From positions 1-22,886 of the IMG/VR virus record IMGVR_UViG_3300023179_000538: a DNA stretch of 22,886 bases, one strand, 5' to 3'. Shown piece after piece: positions 5,427 through 17,936 of the stretch. The first letter of the stretch is position 1; every line of letters starts with the position of its first letter. Below the pieces are notes generated by a model. It did no database searches and was not told where the DNA came from. It saw only the letters and a list, made by a program, of their open reading frames with translations. This stretch comes from a virus. The position numbers were made by a program, and so were the translations under genes.

Positions 5427-6324
5427 CGTGGGCTCGGTGTCGCAGCAGGCGCGCACGCAGAACACAGGCAATGCGTTTCAGCAGGCTGCGTTCAACCGCG
5501 TCAATCAATCGGACCCGTTCGGCAACCGGCTCGATTATCAGCAGACTGGGACCGACGCGCAGGGCAATCCGATCTTCTCTGCCAACCAGACGCTGGGCCA
5601 GATGGGTCAGGACTATGCGTCGGGGCTGTCCGGGTTGGGGCAGAAGTATTTCGACGCAGTTGACAACCGGCCGGATATGTCAAGCAACGCGGCGTTCGAT
5701 CGAGCCTACGGCTATGCCAGTGCCAACATGGAGCCGCGGTTGCAGCGGGCTGAGGATGCCGCCCGCAATCGGCTCGCTAATCAAGGTTTTGATCCGCAGT
5801 CGGAAGCCTACCGCTCTCAGATGGCGGACGTTGCGCTGCAGGCGAACGAGGCGCGAAACAACCTTGTGACCGGGCTACAGGGGCAGATGTTTAACCAGGG
5901 TCTGCAGAACCGCGCGCAGCAAATGAACGAGTATCAGCCGGGCATGCAGTTCGGCAACAAAGTGCTGACGCCGGAATACGTCAATCCGCAGGGCGTCAAC
6001 GTAGCTAACGTGGACGTGCCGGGGCTGTCGAACCTAGCCAAGAACCAGGAGTTCCAGAACTACAACGCGCAAATGCAAAACCACAGCGCCATGCTGGGCG
6101 GCTTGGCCAAAATTGCGGGCTCAGTGCTGATGGCGCCGATGACTGGCGGCACGTCGCTTGCGGGTGCAATCGGGTCGGGGATCGGGTCGGGGCTTGGCAA
6201 GATGTTCAGCGGTGGCGGTGGTGGCAATGGCCTGCCGGCGAATTACACCAACCCGTATGCGGAAGAGGGTTACAATTACAGTGCGTCGCCGGTCACCATG
6301 GGCTTTAAGGTCGGGGGCAACTGA
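5383..6324 (+). CDS. Internal virion / ejection protein (T7 gp14-position)
   Basis: 313 residues. The ATG lies 44 bases inside the previous gene and has AGGG six bases upstream. The N-terminus (MGSLFRQPKPPAP) and the Gln/Asn-rich start with NQSDPFGNRLDYQQTG match a widespread podovirus family placed between the GNAT-like protein and larger internal proteins. Residues 112-185 are helical with many Gln and Asn. Residues 238-275 form a Gly/Ala-rich hydrophobic stretch (LGGLAKIAGSVLMAP) that could insert into a membrane, consistent with a role in forming the channel for DNA entry. The C-terminus is a Gly run and a Tyr/Asn-rich tail. The role follows from family style and gene order. Confidence 0.7.
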   Translation: MGSLFRQPKPPAPLDVGSVSQQARTQNTGNAFQQAAFNRVNQSDPFGNRLDYQQTGTDAQGNPIFSANQTLGQMGQDYASGLSGLGQKYFDAVDNRPDMSSNAAFDRAYGYASANMEPRLQRAEDAARNRLANQGFDPQSEAYRSQMADVALQANEARNNLVTGLQGQMFNQGLQNRAQQMNEYQPGMQFGNKVLTPEYVNPQGVNVANVDVPGLSNLAKNQEFQNYNAQMQNHSAMLGGLAKIAGSVLMAPMTGGTSLAGAIGSGIGSGLGKMFSGGGGGNGLPANYTNPYAEEGYNYSASPVTMGFKVGGN

Positions 6325-7805
6325 TGGTGTTTAGCTACACACCCTACGCCGGCATGACGCCTGACCAAGTCCGGTCTGGCCGGCAGCAAGGCGCGATGCT
6401 TCAGCGTGCCGGCATGGACACCGATGGCATGCGCCATTGGACACAGATGCTGGGCAGCGTGCTGCAGTCAGGCGTCGGGTCCGCGTGGCAGGACCAAGCC
6501 AATCAGGGCGAGAAGGAGGGTCGAGCGTCGGCCAACATGCTGCTGGCGCAGGCGCTGCAGGGCAAGGACATCAAAGGCAACATCGGCGGCATGCTTGCAA
6601 ACCCGTGGGCCGCGGACCAGGGCGGCGCTTTGGCGGGGCGGTATCTGCAGCATCAGCTTGACCAGACGTCACCGGATGCAGCGCTGCGGCGTCAGCAGAT
6701 CGAGTTGGGCAACAAGCAGCTGCAAGAGCAAATTGAATCCCGCAAACAGATGTTCCCGCTTGAGCAGGAACGCTTGAGGCTGCAGGTCGAGGAACAGCGG
6801 CAGCGCGCCAACGATCCCTTTGAGCTTATGTTGCGCGAAAGGTTGAAGCAGGGCGCGGGTGGGACCCCGGGCCAACCGCCGGCTGCGCAGTTGCCGGCAC
6901 TACCGCCCGCGGGCGGCCCAGCAGCGTCGATGCCCGATCCAAACATTCGCCCCCAGAGCGCTCCGGTTGAGCAGCAAGCTGATCCCAATTTCATTCAGGC
7001 GCAGGCTCAGGGCGCGCCTCAGCCGATGCCCCAGGTGCCGCCGCAAACGGCTCCACAGCGCGACATGGTCGATTTGCCGGGGTACGGCAAGGTTGATGTC
7101 GATACAGCAAAAGCTCTGGCGTTCAACTACGCTCGCAAGGGCAACACGGCCGCAGCCAAGATGATCGAGGAGGCCATTGGCTCTGGCCTCGACAAGACCG
7201 CGCGCACGGAGCTGGACAAAACACGCATCAACCTCACCAACCAGCTTGGCCGCCTGAAGGAGATCGAACGGCAGTTCAATCCGAGCTTTCAGCAGGCCGG
7301 CACGCAGCTCGATATGCTGTTCAAGGCAGCATCGGAAAAAATGGGCGCGCCGCTGTCGCCCCAAAACCAGCAGGCTCTGCAGGGGTTCCATGCCTATCGG
7401 TCAGCGACCGTCGGACACTTTAACCAGATGCTCAAGGAATTGAGCGGCACGGCCGTGTCGGCGCAGGAGTTCGAGCGCATCAAGGCGCAGCTCCCAAATC
7501 CCGGCACGGGCTTTGCCAACGGCATCTTGGATGGCGACTCTCCGTCGGTGTTCCAGTCCAAGCTGGCGCAGGCGCGACGGGACGTCAGCCTTGCCATTGC
7601 TCGCGCACACTTCATGGCAGCCAACGGCTTCCGCGGCGACAAGGAGGCGATGGGTGCGGCCATGCCGCTGGATGCGGTACCGCGTGTCATCGAGCAGCGG
7701 GGGCAGATGCTGGAGCAACAGTTGCGCCAACAGTTCCCGCAGGCAAACCCAAAGGACATTCAGAACCGCGTTGATCAGCAGCTCCGACAGGAGTTCGGCA
7801 TCTGA
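6324..7805 (+). CDS. Internal virion / DNA ejection protein (T7 gp15-position)
   Basis: 493 residues; ATG within a TGATG overlap. Predicted parts: residues 1-115 Gly/Gln-rich with several helices; 118-165 a long charged coiled coil (QQIELGNKQLQEQIESRKQM, ending in EEQRQRA); about 175-246 a Pro/Gln/Ala linker; 250 to the end a helical domain (VDVDTAKALAFNYARKGNTA, then FHAYRSATVGHFNQMLKELS). Gln- and Ala-rich helical proteins of this size between two other internal proteins are typical of podovirus ejectosome components, which leave the head with the DNA and line a channel across the cell envelope. No enzymatic motif is visible. The assignment rests on order and composition. Confidence 0.65.
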   Translation: MVFSYTPYAGMTPDQVRSGRQQGAMLQRAGMDTDGMRHWTQMLGSVLQSGVGSAWQDQANQGEKEGRASANMLLAQALQGKDIKGNIGGMLANPWAADQGGALAGRYLQHQLDQTSPDAALRRQQIELGNKQLQEQIESRKQMFPLEQERLRLQVEEQRQRANDPFELMLRERLKQGAGGTPGQPPAAQLPALPPAGGPAASMPDPNIRPQSAPVEQQADPNFIQAQAQGAPQPMPQVPPQTAPQRDMVDLPGYGKVDVDTAKALAFNYARKGNTAAAKMIEEAIGSGLDKTARTELDKTRINLTNQLGRLKEIERQFNPSFQQAGTQLDMLFKAASEKMGAPLSPQNQQALQGFHAYRSATVGHFNQMLKELSGTAVSAQEFERIKAQLPNPGTGFANGILDGDSPSVFQSKLAQARRDVSLAIARAHFMAANGFRGDKEAMGAAMPLDAVPRVIEQRGQMLEQQLRQQFPQANPKDIQNRVDQQLRQEFGI

Positions 7806-10165
7806 TGAGCGGCTACGCGGAACGGCTGCTGTCAGGCAGCCAAGGGCAGGATGGCGAAATGCAGCCCGTTGGCGGCTACGCCGACCGGCTTCTGGGTGGC
7901 GTTCCGGCGATGCAAGCGGTTCAGCAAAAGAAGCCGTCAGGCGGCAATATCTTCTCCAACGCTTGGGAGATGATCAAGGGCAAGCGCGATCCCAATTATG
8001 CCGATGTGCCGGCATTCGACATCGACCGCGCTGGCCCCGGCGTGATCATGTCGACAGCTGGTGCGACGCTCGCCAATGCGGACGACACCGCATATGCGGA
8101 TATCATCCAGAAGTCGTTGGGAGATCGGTTCCTGGGCCGCACCAAGGACGCCAACGGCTACGAGATCATCGATTACATCGATGCCAGCGGGACCAAGCGA
8201 CGCGGCTACGTGAACATGCCCGGCCTCGACATGGGCGATGTGCAGCGCGCCATCGGTGGCGGCCTTGCCTACATGGGTGTGGGTAAAGTGCTTGGTCGGG
8301 CTATGCAGGGGGCGCCGATGTTGGGGCGCGTGGCCGCGCAGGGCGGCGGCGCGGCCAGCACGTCCGTGGTGCAGGATATCGGGTCGATGGCGCTCGGCAG
8401 CGAGCAGGGGATCGACCCTAAGAAAGCGGTCATTGCCGGCGCTGGTGGCGCGCTGTTCGAGGGGTTGCCAAGCAAAGCTGTAGCGCCCCTGCTCGGCGGC
8501 GCAGCGGGTGCGGCGCTGTCAAACGAGGGCGATGGTGTTGCTGGCGCCGGCCTTGGCGCCGCAGCCGGCATGGGCGCTGCTGCCCTCGCGCGCCGTCTGC
8601 TGGGCATGAACCCTGGCCAGTACGTGCAGAATGGCAAGCTCACGCCCGCCGGCGAGAAGGCGGCCGCGAGCGCAGGCGTCAACCCGGCCGAAGTCAACGA
8701 CGAGTTTGCCAAGGTGTTTGCCGACGCCTACGCCAAGACGCGCAGCGCGTCGCTGGCCGCAGTCGAGGCCGACGCGCGATCGGCGCCCGTGCCAGTGCGG
8801 CTGACCAAAGGACAGCGCGAGCGCGACTATCAGCAGATGGTGCTGGAAGATCAAATGCGAGCCGGCCTTAAAGGGCCGCAGGCAAAATCGGTCATGGATG
8901 ATTTTGACCGCCTGCAGACGCAAGACATCGCGTTTGCAGCAGACCGCAACCCCATGACGTTGGGCGGTGTCTCGTCAACGCTCGCTCCGCGGCGACTGGA
9001 TACACCACCCATGACGGCGCTGGGGAGCGATATCCGCGCTGGAGTGCAAACAGCGCGCGAGGGCGGCAGGCAAGCAGAAAAGCAGGCGTGGGAAGGGGCA
9101 AACAAAGGGTTTGCGGCGCCCGAGGAAGCGTTGGCCATGTTGCCGGGGGAGATCCGGGACGGCATCGCCAAGACCAACATCCCCGTCAACCAGAACACGC
9201 CGACAGCCTCAAAGATGGTGGATTTCCTGCGCGACTATCGCGCCGGCAAAGCGCCGACGGGAGCGGACGATTTCCTTCCCGACATGACGAACCAGAGCGT
9301 CGACCAGGTGCGACGCGTGCTCGGCCGCATGAAAGACGACGCAGCAACGGCAACGGACAAGGCAGCCGCTGATGCCGTGTACCGCTCCTACAACACGTGG
9401 ATGGGCAAGGCCGCAGATGCAGGTCACTTCCCTGCCGAAGCTGTGGCAGCCATCCGCAGCGGCCGGAGCATTTCCGCGGAGGTCAAGGGCTTGTTCGAGC
9501 CGCGTGATGGTGGGCGCCTGACGCCTGCAGCGCAGCGCATCCGAGACGTGCTCGAGCGTGCGGACTCGCCTGAAGCCGTTGTTGCCACTCTGTTTGGCCG
9601 CGTCGGCGCCAAGGGCATGATGCCAGCGGGCACCACCGGCATGCTGTCCAACCTCAAGACCGCGCTGCAGAAATACGCGCCCGAAACCGGCAAGCAAACC
9701 TGGGATGACATCCGGCTTGCCTACTGGCGCCGCATCACGACGGACAGCGCCGGGAACCTGCTCAGCCCGCAGATGCTGGCCAAGAACATTGCGACAGCAA
9801 AGAACCAGCATGGCGAGGCGTGGAACATCCTGCTCAACCCGCGTGAGCAAGCCATGATCATGCAGGTGCAGAAGGCCGTTGAGGCGGCAGGCTACAGGCC
9901 GTCCAACTTCCGCACCAACTCGAGTGGGTCCGCGTTTGCTGGCGGGTCAATGATCAAAGACCTTGTCGCGACCGTCTGGAAAGCGCTGGCGGCATCACCT
10001 GCCGTAAGCGCAACCGCTGGTGCCGTCATGCGTCCTGTTGCGTCGGGCTGGTACAAAGGTAAGGCGCAGCGCGCGACCGATCCTCGCATTCAGGAGGTCG
10101 TGCCGTCACTTGGCGGCTACGGCGGCGCTGTCGGTTCCGCCATCGAACGCAATCGCGCTCAGTAA
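7805..10165 (+). CDS. Large internal virion / DNA ejection protein (T7 gp16-position)
   Basis: 786 residues; ATG in a TGATG overlap. The N-terminus carries two copies of a short motif, GYAERLLSG at 3-11 and GYADRLLGG at 24-32. Residues about 65-145 (DIIQKSLGDRFLGRTKDANG, then RRGYVNMPGLDMGDVQRAI) look like a conserved phage domain seen at the N-terminus of other ejection proteins. Residues 148-266 are unusually Gly/Ala-rich and hydrophobic (AGAGLGAAAGMGAAALARRL), which could form membrane helices. The remainder is helical. No transglycosylase motif like that of T7 gp16 is visible. As the largest and last internal protein gene before the fibres, it probably forms the outer part of the ejection channel. 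Confidence 0.68.
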   Translation: MSGYAERLLSGSQGQDGEMQPVGGYADRLLGGVPAMQAVQQKKPSGGNIFSNAWEMIKGKRDPNYADVPAFDIDRAGPGVIMSTAGATLANADDTAYADIIQKSLGDRFLGRTKDANGYEIIDYIDASGTKRRGYVNMPGLDMGDVQRAIGGGLAYMGVGKVLGRAMQGAPMLGRVAAQGGGAASTSVVQDIGSMALGSEQGIDPKKAVIAGAGGALFEGLPSKAVAPLLGGAAGAALSNEGDGVAGAGLGAAAGMGAAALARRLLGMNPGQYVQNGKLTPAGEKAAASAGVNPAEVNDEFAKVFADAYAKTRSASLAAVEADARSAPVPVRLTKGQRERDYQQMVLEDQMRAGLKGPQAKSVMDDFDRLQTQDIAFAADRNPMTLGGVSSTLAPRRLDTPPMTALGSDIRAGVQTAREGGRQAEKQAWEGANKGFAAPEEALAMLPGEIRDGIAKTNIPVNQNTPTASKMVDFLRDYRAGKAPTGADDFLPDMTNQSVDQVRRVLGRMKDDAATATDKAAADAVYRSYNTWMGKAADAGHFPAEAVAAIRSGRSISAEVKGLFEPRDGGRLTPAAQRIRDVLERADSPEAVVATLFGRVGAKGMMPAGTTGMLSNLKTALQKYAPETGKQTWDDIRLAYWRRITTDSAGNLLSPQMLAKNIATAKNQHGEAWNILLNPREQAMIMQVQKAVEAAGYRPSNFRTNSSGSAFAGGSMIKDLVATVWKALAASPAVSATAGAVMRPVASGWYKGKAQRATDPRIQEVVPSLGGYGGAVGSAIERNRAQ

Positions 10166-14776: not shown

Positions 14777-15438
14777 CCCTTGCCCCTCGCTCCGAAGTCA
14801 AGCTCGCCGGTGTGCATTCCGATCTCGTCAGGGTGGTGCGTCGCGCCGACGAGATGGGCGCCACGTTCCATGTGACGTGCGGGCTGCGCACAGTCGAGGA
14901 GCAGAAGGCGCTCGTCGCCGCCGGCAAGTCCAAGACGATGAAGTCGAGGCATCTCACCGGCCACGCTGTCGACGTCGTGGCCGTCACCAAAGATGGCGGC
15001 GTCTCCTACGATGAAGACGACATGCAGGCCGTTGCTCGCAAGATGAAGGCGGCGGCGGCTGACCTCGGTATCCCGATCGAGTGGGGCGGGGACTGGAAAT
15101 CATTCCACGACACCCCGCACTTCCAGCTGCCCTGGAAGGACTACCCCGCAGATGGCCCCGCGCCGGCACACAGAGAAGCGGAGAAGCCTCTTGCGAAATC
15201 CGGCACCGTGTGGGGCTCACTTGGCGCCATGGCCTCTGGCGCTGCCGTCTACGCAGAGCAGACGATGTCCTGGGCTATCGACACGATTGCAGCCATGACG
15301 TCGCTTGAGCCAATCAAAGTGCTGCTGTCTCAGGCCGGAGCCAACGCCAAGGCGATCGGGCTCGGCACGCTGGTGTTCTGCGGGTTCGTGGTGATCTCGC
15401 GGCGCGCTCGGGTGAAATCCGAAGGGGGCGCGCCGTGA
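14773..15438 (+). CDS. Endolysin, M15-type L-Ala-D-Glu peptidase with C-terminal membrane segment
   Basis: 221 residues from ATG 14773, which overlaps the previous stop; the frame is open further upstream but that part is a shadow of the previous genes. The catalytic domain (about 1-122) has the M15 motifs: SRHLTGHAVDVV with His60 and Asp67, and WGGDWKSFHDTPHFQLPW with Asp113 and His116. By comparison with T5 endolysin, His60, Asp67 and His116 should bind zinc and Asp113 should be catalytic. It would cut the L-Ala-D-Glu bond of peptidoglycan stems. After a linker (122-143) come a hydrophobic Gly/Ala segment (145-162) and a clear transmembrane segment at 194-208, followed by a basic end. There is no N-terminal signal. 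The tail may bind or disrupt the membrane. Confidence 0.85.
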   Translation: MTLAPRSEVKLAGVHSDLVRVVRRADEMGATFHVTCGLRTVEEQKALVAAGKSKTMKSRHLTGHAVDVVAVTKDGGVSYDEDDMQAVARKMKAAAADLGIPIEWGGDWKSFHDTPHFQLPWKDYPADGPAPAHREAEKPLAKSGTVWGSLGAMASGAAVYAEQTMSWAIDTIAAMTSLEPIKVLLSQAGANAKAIGLGTLVFCGFVVISRRARVKSEGGAP

Positions 15439-17546
15439 ACGAAGCGGACCGCAATCGTCTGGCGCTGCTGCTTCTCAACGACGGTGGCGGCTCCCTGTCG
15501 CGACGCTCTGCGGTGTCGAACGCGTTCACGTCGGCCGTTGCGCCCGATCCTACGCAAGCCGAGTTCCTGCGATCGGAGAAGGACACGCGTCCATTCTACG
15601 AGACCGAGCATCGCGCGTCGGTCCTGCCTCTGGTCATGTCGGGATACAACAATTCTGTCGGCTACGGCGCGCCCGTCATTGCTGGCGGCCGCATGTGGGA
15701 CGTTCTCGGCGACATCACGTCAGGCCGACCGACGACGATGGACGAACTACACCATGCAGCAGAGCAGGGGGCGGGTGCCGCACTGCTGTCGAGCCCGTTC
15801 GTGAAGGCCCCAGCTGGCGCGCTGCGGTCTGGAGCGATGCGAAGCCAACCACCGGCGCCGTCCAGAAGTCTTGACCCGCTCGGCTACTATTCAAAGGCCC
15901 TTGAGGAAGCGCAGAATCTTCCGTCACAGGCGTCACACGATCAGATCCTCGCGACGCTCCGCAACAAGGGCGTCAAGCCGGGCGAGATCGAGGCGACGGG
16001 GCTGGCAGAGGCGCTGATGGGCAAGCCGTCCGTCTCGCGTGATGATGTCGTCCGGCATCTCACGGAGAACAGGGTGGGGCTGAATGAGGTGAAATACGGC
16101 GGAGACCGCACGAATCTTTCCGCCAGCGGACTGAGCGCCGAGGCACGCAAAGAATTCGAGTTGTTCCAAAGTTACGGCATTGGCACAACACTTGATGATC
16201 TGCGTTCGTTCATATCAAAGGAGGTCGACGACTACAACTTCAACTTCAGGCCGATCCCGCGCGGCCTCAGGGAGTTGAGCGCGGCAATTCGCAGCGGTCA
16301 GGTCAGGGAGGTGCCAGAGGTTACTGGCGTTGCCGACATTGCGAAATATAAAGGGTACTCCCTCGACCCGTCGAACCCGACCTATCGAGAGACGGTGCTG
16401 CATTTGCCAGAACGGCCAATAAAACCAAGTGGCATGGCTGGCACATCATGGGGCGATGATGTGCAATTTACTGATCGAGGGTCTGCCGGCGACCCAAATT
16501 TTAGAAAAGGCCACTTCCCCGAGCCTAACATCGTCGGCCACCTGATGACGAGCGTTAACAAGCACGAGGGCAAGCCCGTCTACACGATTGACCAGATTCA
16601 GTCTGATTGGGGGCAGAAGATTGAGACCGACACGCGGAATGCTCTGGCGCAACGTCTGTTCGGCAAGCGGTTCAAGGAACTGACGGCGGACGAACGCAAG
16701 CAGGTCAGCGCCGCTAAGCAAGAAGGTGACAAACCGGCGGGCGTCAGGGACGAGGCGAAGATCGCGGAACTGCAACTTAGGTTTGATGAGGCGGCCAAGG
16801 CTCTTGCAAGGGAGAGGGAGGTGGAACTGCTTCCAACTCTGACAAGCAACGGCGCCGAACGGCTGACCAAGCGTTTGTTTGGCGACCGTGCAACATGGGC
16901 CGAACTGTCGGACCAACAACGTCACGAAGTAGCAAAGCTATCGGCTGAGAATACGGCAAAGAACGCCGAACGGTATCGCAGGATGGAGTCACAAGAAGCC
17001 GCAGTAGATCGGCTTGAGGCGGAATTGAACACGGCTCGCAACAGCGCCGTCGGCCATCCCCTCGTCAACACCACCGACCAGTGGACCAACACGGTTCTCC
17101 GCCGTGCCATCCAGCTGGCCATCGAGGCCAACGCAGAGAAGATCGCGATACCATCCGGCCGCACCGTGCTGTCCTACAATCCCGGCGATGATCACGGCAT
17201 GAACGCGTTTTACAACGACATCGTACCGAAGAACCTCGCCAAGATCCTCGGCGGGCTCGACAAGGCCGGCCTTCGCCGAGCCATGGTCGATCAACTCGAC
17301 ACACCCTCCGGCCCGAAGGGCAGCGGCTTCACGGTGTTCGACTTGACGCCACAGATGAGGGAGCAGGCCCGTCGCGGCATGCCGATCTTCGCCAACCCCC
17401 CAACCGCAGCAGCACTTCCGGTTGCCGTGACCAGCCCCGATGACGAACGTCGTCGATCCATGACGGGAACGTGGATGTCGACCGACCGCTACCGCGATCT
17501 CGCTCTCCTGCTCATGCAGAGCCAGCAGCAGGGAAGCCAGCCATGA
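15435..17546 (+). CDS. Polyvalent-type (LPD/MuF-polyvalent-like) phage protein
   Basis: 703 residues; GTG start overlapping the previous stop (GTGA). Several pieces resemble the polyvalent proteins of phages and plasmids. Residues about 151-222 (YYSKALEEAQNLPSQ, LRNKGVKPGEIEATGL, VVRHLTENRVGLNEV) match a helical domain of such proteins. Residues 383-396 (YTIDQIQSDWGQKI) match their EIQSDWHQ motif, 542-575 (LVNTTDQWTNTVLRRAIQLA, then EKIAIPSG) match their T..W..L.LKR...A segment, and 589-610 plus LTPQMREQARRGMPIF (637-652) match their usual end. Residues 405-430 and 478-504 are a degenerate repeat (RLFGxR...EL....R..V). These proteins are thought to enter the cell with the DNA and counter host functions. 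The reaction is unknown. Placement in the lysis block is unusual. Confidence 0.65.
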   Translation: MNEADRNRLALLLLNDGGGSLSRRSAVSNAFTSAVAPDPTQAEFLRSEKDTRPFYETEHRASVLPLVMSGYNNSVGYGAPVIAGGRMWDVLGDITSGRPTTMDELHHAAEQGAGAALLSSPFVKAPAGALRSGAMRSQPPAPSRSLDPLGYYSKALEEAQNLPSQASHDQILATLRNKGVKPGEIEATGLAEALMGKPSVSRDDVVRHLTENRVGLNEVKYGGDRTNLSASGLSAEARKEFELFQSYGIGTTLDDLRSFISKEVDDYNFNFRPIPRGLRELSAAIRSGQVREVPEVTGVADIAKYKGYSLDPSNPTYRETVLHLPERPIKPSGMAGTSWGDDVQFTDRGSAGDPNFRKGHFPEPNIVGHLMTSVNKHEGKPVYTIDQIQSDWGQKIETDTRNALAQRLFGKRFKELTADERKQVSAAKQEGDKPAGVRDEAKIAELQLRFDEAAKALAREREVELLPTLTSNGAERLTKRLFGDRATWAELSDQQRHEVAKLSAENTAKNAERYRRMESQEAAVDRLEAELNTARNSAVGHPLVNTTDQWTNTVLRRAIQLAIEANAEKIAIPSGRTVLSYNPGDDHGMNAFYNDIVPKNLAKILGGLDKAGLRRAMVDQLDTPSGPKGSGFTVFDLTPQMREQARRGMPIFANPPTAAALPVAVTSPDDERRRSMTGTWMSTDRYRDLALLLMQSQQQGSQP

Positions 17547-17767
17547 TCACCGTTATCCTCGCCCGCTATGGGCTGCACATCGGGATCGTGGCTGGAGGAC
17601 TGGTGGCATTCTTCGCCTGGGACGCGTCTCGCGTCCACAAAGGCGTCCAGAAGGAGCGTGCTCGCGTCGAACGACAGGGAAACAAGATCGATGCGAAGGC
17701 TCAAGAGGCTCGCCGCGCTGCTACTGCTCAGCCTGACAAGCGGCTGCAGCAGTATTTCCGCGACTGA
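17543..17767 (+). CDS. i-spanin (Rz-like inner membrane lysis protein)
   Basis: 74 residues from ATG 17543, which overlaps the previous stop (ATGA). Residues about 3-26 (TVILARYGLHIGIVAGGLVA) form one N-terminal transmembrane helix. It is followed by a charged periplasmic coiled coil (SRVHKGVQKERARVERQGNK and on to KAQEARRA). This is the usual form of an Rz-type i-spanin: N-in, C-out in the inner membrane, with the periplasmic part binding the o-spanin to fuse inner and outer membranes at the last step of lysis. The lipoprotein gene starting inside it in another frame strongly supports the call. Confidence 0.8.
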   Translation: MITVILARYGLHIGIVAGGLVAFFAWDASRVHKGVQKERARVERQGNKIDAKAQEARRAATAQPDKRLQQYFRD

Positions 17768-17936
17768 GCCGGCGCCCGTTGGCACCGCCGAGCAGGTGTG
17801 CCGTACGTGGCAGACGATCCGGCCATCTCGCAAAGACGTTCTGACGCCGCCCACCACCGAGCAGATCGTCGGCAACAACGCGGCCCGCGAGCAGTGGTGC
17901 CCGCCCAAGTTTGCGTCGATCACAGCCAGGACGTGA
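17691..17936 (+). CDS. o-spanin (Rz1-like outer membrane lipoprotein)
   Basis: 81 residues from ATG 17691, inside the i-spanin gene in the +1 frame; the two overlap by 77 bases and this gene extends 169 bases beyond. The longer open frame starting at 17568 is a shadow. MRRLKRLAALLLLSLTSGC is a clear lipoprotein signal: basic start, hydrophobic core and lipobox LTSGC with the lipid-bearing Cys at residue 19. The mature part is short (about 63 residues) and contains Pro (TEPAPVG, VLTPPTTEQ), as expected for an o-spanin. It would sit in the inner leaflet of the outer membrane and bind the i-spanin. Partial overlap in shifted frames is a known spanin arrangement. Confidence 0.8.
   Translation: MRRLKRLAALLLLSLTSGCSSISATEPAPVGTAEQVCRTWQTIRPSRKDVLTPPTTEQIVGNNAAREQWCPPKFASITART

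Follow-up and report, generated by a model that had tools for sequence, protein, structure and literature searches.

The 22,886-nucleotide stretch of viral DNA analysed here (the window), which is an entire IMG/VR contig, carries within its lysis genes a 703-residue protein made up of two parts by homology: an N-terminal segment that recurs in two other phages, and a large module, the QSDW module, that is common in phage DNA and is without a family model in Pfam, PHROG and NCBIfam. We consider it probable that this protein is an effector made late, packaged into the virion and ejected early, with its gene parked in the lysis operon. Translated together with the lysis operon, the protein would be made late; the N-terminal segment would probably direct it into the short-tailed virion, in which it would be packaged and from which it would enter the next host together with the phage DNA; and the module, of about 515 residues, would be a probable enzyme, active in the newly infected cell immediately after ejection. 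An earlier note on this DNA had offered two readings, and late synthesis with presumed packaging is the better of them, the other being a role in lysis timing.

A late gene inside the lysis cassette

The contig represents part of a temperate phage with a short tail. It has a gene for a major head protein, tail-tube-like genes, genes for two large internal proteins and for fibres, and a lysis block, and it also encodes a DNA invertase and an integrase. The gene under study stands among the late genes, on the same strand and right after the fibre genes and the endolysin (Table 1). Its position between endolysin and spanins is as the earlier note had described it: the frame is single and intact, from a GTG start to a TGA stop, with an M15 endolysin and an Rz/Rz1 pair as neighbours and only shorter frames, broken by stops, on the opposite strand. 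The GTG start falls within the stop codon of the endolysin gene, and the ATG of the i-spanin gene falls within the stop codon of the 703-residue frame, each with an overlap of four bases. These overlaps at both ends suggest translational coupling, and because the start and stop codons overlap on both sides, so that the gene would be translated with the lysis operon, we infer late synthesis of its product.

Table 1. Features of the window discussed in the text (positions are those of the window).
Feature	Position	Strand	Remarks
Probable internal virion (ejection) protein	6324..7805	+	ct2G2228 homologue 3.5e-51; putative function, from position
Probable internal virion (ejection) protein	7805..10165	+	ct2G2228 homologue 1.6e-175; putative function, from position
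Small ORF, 74 aa	14552..14776	+	ATGA 4-base overlap with endolysin start
M15-type endolysin, 221 aa	14773..15438	+	Pfam PF13539 (Peptidase_M15_4) 2e-13; PHROG endolysin 1.1e-52
Polyvalent-type protein, 703 aa	15435..17546	+	GTGA overlap with endolysin, ATGA overlap with Rz
N-terminal segment, residues 42-119	15558..15791	+	common to ct2G2228 UOF81783.1 and IMG/VR contig 3300006417_000420
QSDW module, residues 142-658	15858..17408	+	alignment and AlphaFold2 of residues 137-659
YRE triad, residues 317-319	16383..16391	+	invariant: 1.00 in 85 sequences
QSDWGQ motif, residues 389-394	16599..16616	+	QSDW invariant; G mostly H in wider family
Short C-terminal tail, residues 659-703	17409..17543	+	compare tails of solo module proteins
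i-spanin (Rz-like)	17543..17767	+	one N-terminal TM segment; arrangement shared with L007 and L116
o-spanin (Rz1-like) lipoprotein	17691..17936	+	PHROG Rz-like spanin 9.7e-9; overlaps Rz, other frame

The Rz1 product has the lipobox LTSGC and a homologue in podovirus ct2G2228 (1.9e-18). The endolysin ends in a hydrophobic segment (residues ~190-208) that, judged by hydropathy, is possibly membrane-spanning, and hydrophobic endolysin C-termini are also found in ct2G2228, IMGVR_UViG_3300006417_000420, Rhizobium phage RHph_I3_18 and a further record (L028).

A part in lysis timing, as a regulator or component alongside the endolysin and spanins, takes its argument from position, that is, from the codon overlaps with the endolysin and Rz genes, and we regard it as very improbable. 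The 703-residue protein has no membrane or signal segment (hydropathy peaks at 1.0 over 19 residues), no lipoprotein or membrane signal typical of lysis proteins, and no peptidoglycan-hydrolase domain by Pfam or PHROG search. Furthermore, in both ct2G2228 and the phage of IMGVR_UViG_3300006417_000420 the endolysin gene is followed directly by Rz and Rz1, uninterrupted, so the gene in the window interrupts a conserved lysis cassette. In the comparison of gene order that the earlier note had proposed, two related phages have the cassette without this gene, relatives of the module lie beside terminase, portal or internal-virion genes, and nothing positive emerged for the role in lysis timing.

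In searches of 50 module-bearing records for M15_4 and phage-lysozyme domains, no lysis cassette containing the module was found; because these domains were detected in a minority of the records, calling the lysis site unusual rests on limited sampling. A literature search for polyvalent proteins located in lysis cassettes returned no relevant paper, and the main text of the polyvalent protein study of Iyer et al. (2017, PMC5512222) names no endolysin, holin or spanin. The lysis operon is not the usual site for polyvalent genes.

A widespread module with enzyme-like invariant residues

Over its whole length the module aligns with residues 142-658 of the protein, and it recurs as one unit; the segments 140-225 and 380-655 that the earlier note had singled out are indeed conserved, although as two ends of this one module and not as separate domains, and a further conserved block (~303-397) lies between them. 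The motifs quoted in that note are all present: besides QSDWGQ (Table 1), TTDQWTNTVLRR occupies residues 546-557 and LTPQMREQARRGMPIF residues 637-652. Relatives of the protein were found by single-sequence phmmer at E values of 1e-84 to 1e-91, far beyond chance, and a scan of genomes for the module gave one locus.

Scans of viral contigs recovered the module from proteins whose lengths run from 702 to 5878 residues. When a distant relative from Dolichospermum phage Dfl-JY45 served as the seed of a broader scan, at least 552 occurrences were confirmed among the 600 stretches listed. Among the matches listed there are at least 106 open frames with the module, and it occurs both in giants of 945-5878 residues and in solo proteins (roughly 560-832 residues; about 50, including a few fragments or broken genes) in which the module is preceded by a variable N-terminus and followed by a short tail. 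The module is also found in plasmids.

Across 85 sequences, E184, Y317-R318-E319, H360, N365, Q389-S390-D391-W392, G436, P542, G575, Y593 and G648 are invariant, and H369, W550 and R557 are nearly so; the protein in the window keeps all of them. The invariant polar residues are enzyme-like, and the module is probably catalytic on this evidence.

Neither Pfam nor PHROG gave a match to the whole protein at E 0.1, named LPD, ART and zincin domains included. When the 85 module sequences were searched, no Pfam or NCBIfam family, including any LPD, covered the module, and a PDB sequence search matched no solved structure. AlphaFold2 modelled the module alone with confidence (residues 137-659, 85 sequences; pLDDT 86.0, pTM 0.79), and its full-length model from 13 sequences was poor (pLDDT 58.5). 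A Foldseek search of the modelled module against the PDB returned nothing below E 0.4, and against viral predictions it gave 21 matches at E <= 0.001, nearly all of them uncharacterised or polyvalent-type phage proteins. The topology led us to consider a GNAT acetyltransferase, and the profile comparison spoke against it (hhalign probability 0.05%, in a small, ad hoc comparison set); the GNAT structures among the Foldseek matches had E values no better than 0.6.

The module is thus a very common one in phages, with enzyme-like invariant residues, for which there is neither a family model in these three databases nor a solved relative. The protein had been labelled as of the MuF-polyvalent or LPD type, and profile searches against LPD models had been proposed. 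Pfam detects no MuF domain or portal fusion in it, and the LPD models gave no match, either to the protein or to the 85 module sequences. With no counterpart for the module among Pfam, PHROG or NCBIfam families or solved structures, the designation LPD-type is right in kind, through the domain company described below, and not by any named domain.

Domain company and gene neighbourhoods of the module

Giant phage proteins with the module also carry LPD23, ART-PolyVal and zincin domains, and the protein in the window therefore shares modules with LPD23- and ART-PolyVal-bearing proteins, which speaks for the polyvalent type. Among plasmids, a Pseudomonas aeruginosa protein of about 5000 residues that is annotated as LPD23 contains the module, and on a Janthinobacterium plasmid a form of 605 residues has a DotH/IcmK type IV secretion gene in its vicinity. 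In phage ct7L0027 the portal comes first, then a polyvalent protein with M15, GNAT and ART domains, and then a module protein.

Some observations on individual polyvalent genes may be recorded here. The Dfl-JY45 protein (XAI97106.1, 2387 residues, L031:3415-10578) contains the QSDW module twice, together with four ART-PolyVal stretches. In ct7L0027 the gene for the GNAT/M15/ART protein overlaps the module gene by four bases (L114:6380-11139), and an M15 domain adjoins the module there as it does in the window. Two near-identical contigs differ in that a gene for a 1122-residue polyvalent protein is split in one of them into two frames, of 792 and 310 residues (L003:5456-8824 versus L001:6195-9563).

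The genes of the solo forms tend to lie beside virion genes. Nine cluster shortly before a terminase match (L073, L085, L095 and L108, at 0.37-0.47 kb) or a P22-type portal match (L041, L075, L083, L093 and L100, at 1.7-2.6 kb), and another (L016) is directly 3' of its portal. These solo proteins resemble the 703-residue protein in length and layout, and they differ from it in their N-termini and in their location beside terminase or portal genes. Several giants have their genes 11-17 kb downstream of a T7-type portal, in the region that internal virion proteins occupy, and a relative in a Pelagibacter phage adjoins a putative internal virion protein. Both placements would also suit a virion structural or assembly protein that lacks effector activity, such as a component of the internal core or of the tail; we nevertheless think this improbable, because the module occurs on plasmids too, has a patchy distribution in related phages (L025, L026 and L027 lack it) and has invariant polar residues of an enzyme-like kind.

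In the published description by Iyer et al., phage polyvalent proteins are late, virion-linked and injected, with late-gene placement being typical. The neighbourhoods of the module and the late placement of the gene in the window fit this view, as does the sharing of its module with LPD23 and ART-PolyVal proteins and with plasmids. The protein departs from the polyvalent proteins described there in consisting of a single module of effector size joined to an N-terminal segment, and in having a module that matches no LPD named in Pfam. A second enzymatic domain was not found by Pfam or PHROG, which makes the protein minimal for a polyvalent one.

An N-terminal segment joined to three payloads

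The N-terminal segment occurs in two other phages at 43-52% identity, and further viral scans added one new contig only, making three examples in all among the public contigs searched. Each of the three is joined to a different polyvalent payload. UOF81783.1 of ct2G2228 (MW202785), whose segment is 43% identical to that of the 703-residue protein, differs in carrying LPD23 and a zincin-like region; its gene lies after the tail spike and before the endolysin and looks frameshifted. The protein of IMGVR_UViG_3300006417_000420 (L024:6218-7393), with a segment about 50% identical, differs in having an ART-PolyVal payload (Pfam E 1.4e-6, slightly short of the curated threshold) and in being encoded between two tail genes. 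The third payload is the QSDW module of the window. Because one segment joins three payloads, we propose for it a role in delivery or docking, and on these three cases it is probably a delivery or virion-loading segment.

Several minor observations concern the same proteins. UOF81783.1 and UOF81816.1 of ct2G2228 (L007:19986-21204) look like one gene, comprising N-terminal segment, LPD23 and zincin, that has been split in two. Two genes of the phage of IMGVR_UViG_3300006417_000420 (L024:6218-7393 and L024:8825-9682) share an N-terminal tag of about 15 residues, M-x-D-D-x-S-R-Q-x-L-A-x-F-L. A terminal helix tag common to the N- and C-termini of the 703-residue protein was no better than in shuffled sequences (84/500).

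The recurrence of the segment among the tail genes of one phage (L024) bears on a further alternative, in which the protein would be a late-acting factor that is not packaged (a moron) and that is active within the dying cell or directed at competing phages. The enclosure of the gene in the lysis operon, where its first and last codons overlap those of its neighbours, would accommodate such a factor, and polyvalent domains have also been proposed to counter superinfecting elements (Iyer et al. 2017). The tail-gene setting of the segment argues against it, as does the company of module relatives with packaging, portal and internal-virion genes, and we judge this alternative unlikely.

The favoured reading, a packaged and early-ejected effector, can be extended: the QSDW module may be an enzyme fold so far unrecognised, which many phages and some plasmids deliver into cells, and the N-terminal segment may be a portable virion-loading tag for swappable effectors, placed in the lysis operon for late synthesis. 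We offer this extension tentatively. The protein offers a small, testable case in which a phage effector carries what may be a delivery tag, with three payloads in three phages, and if the segment does load short-tailed virions, it would provide a handle on how phages select the proteins that they inject.

The window and ct2G2228 share both large internal proteins as well as the o-spanin. The larger internal protein of the window (786 residues) has at its N-terminus a tandem short motif, GYAERLLSG...GYADRLLGG, and its ct2G2228 homologue has ARDWASELLGG...ARDWAEEMLNG.
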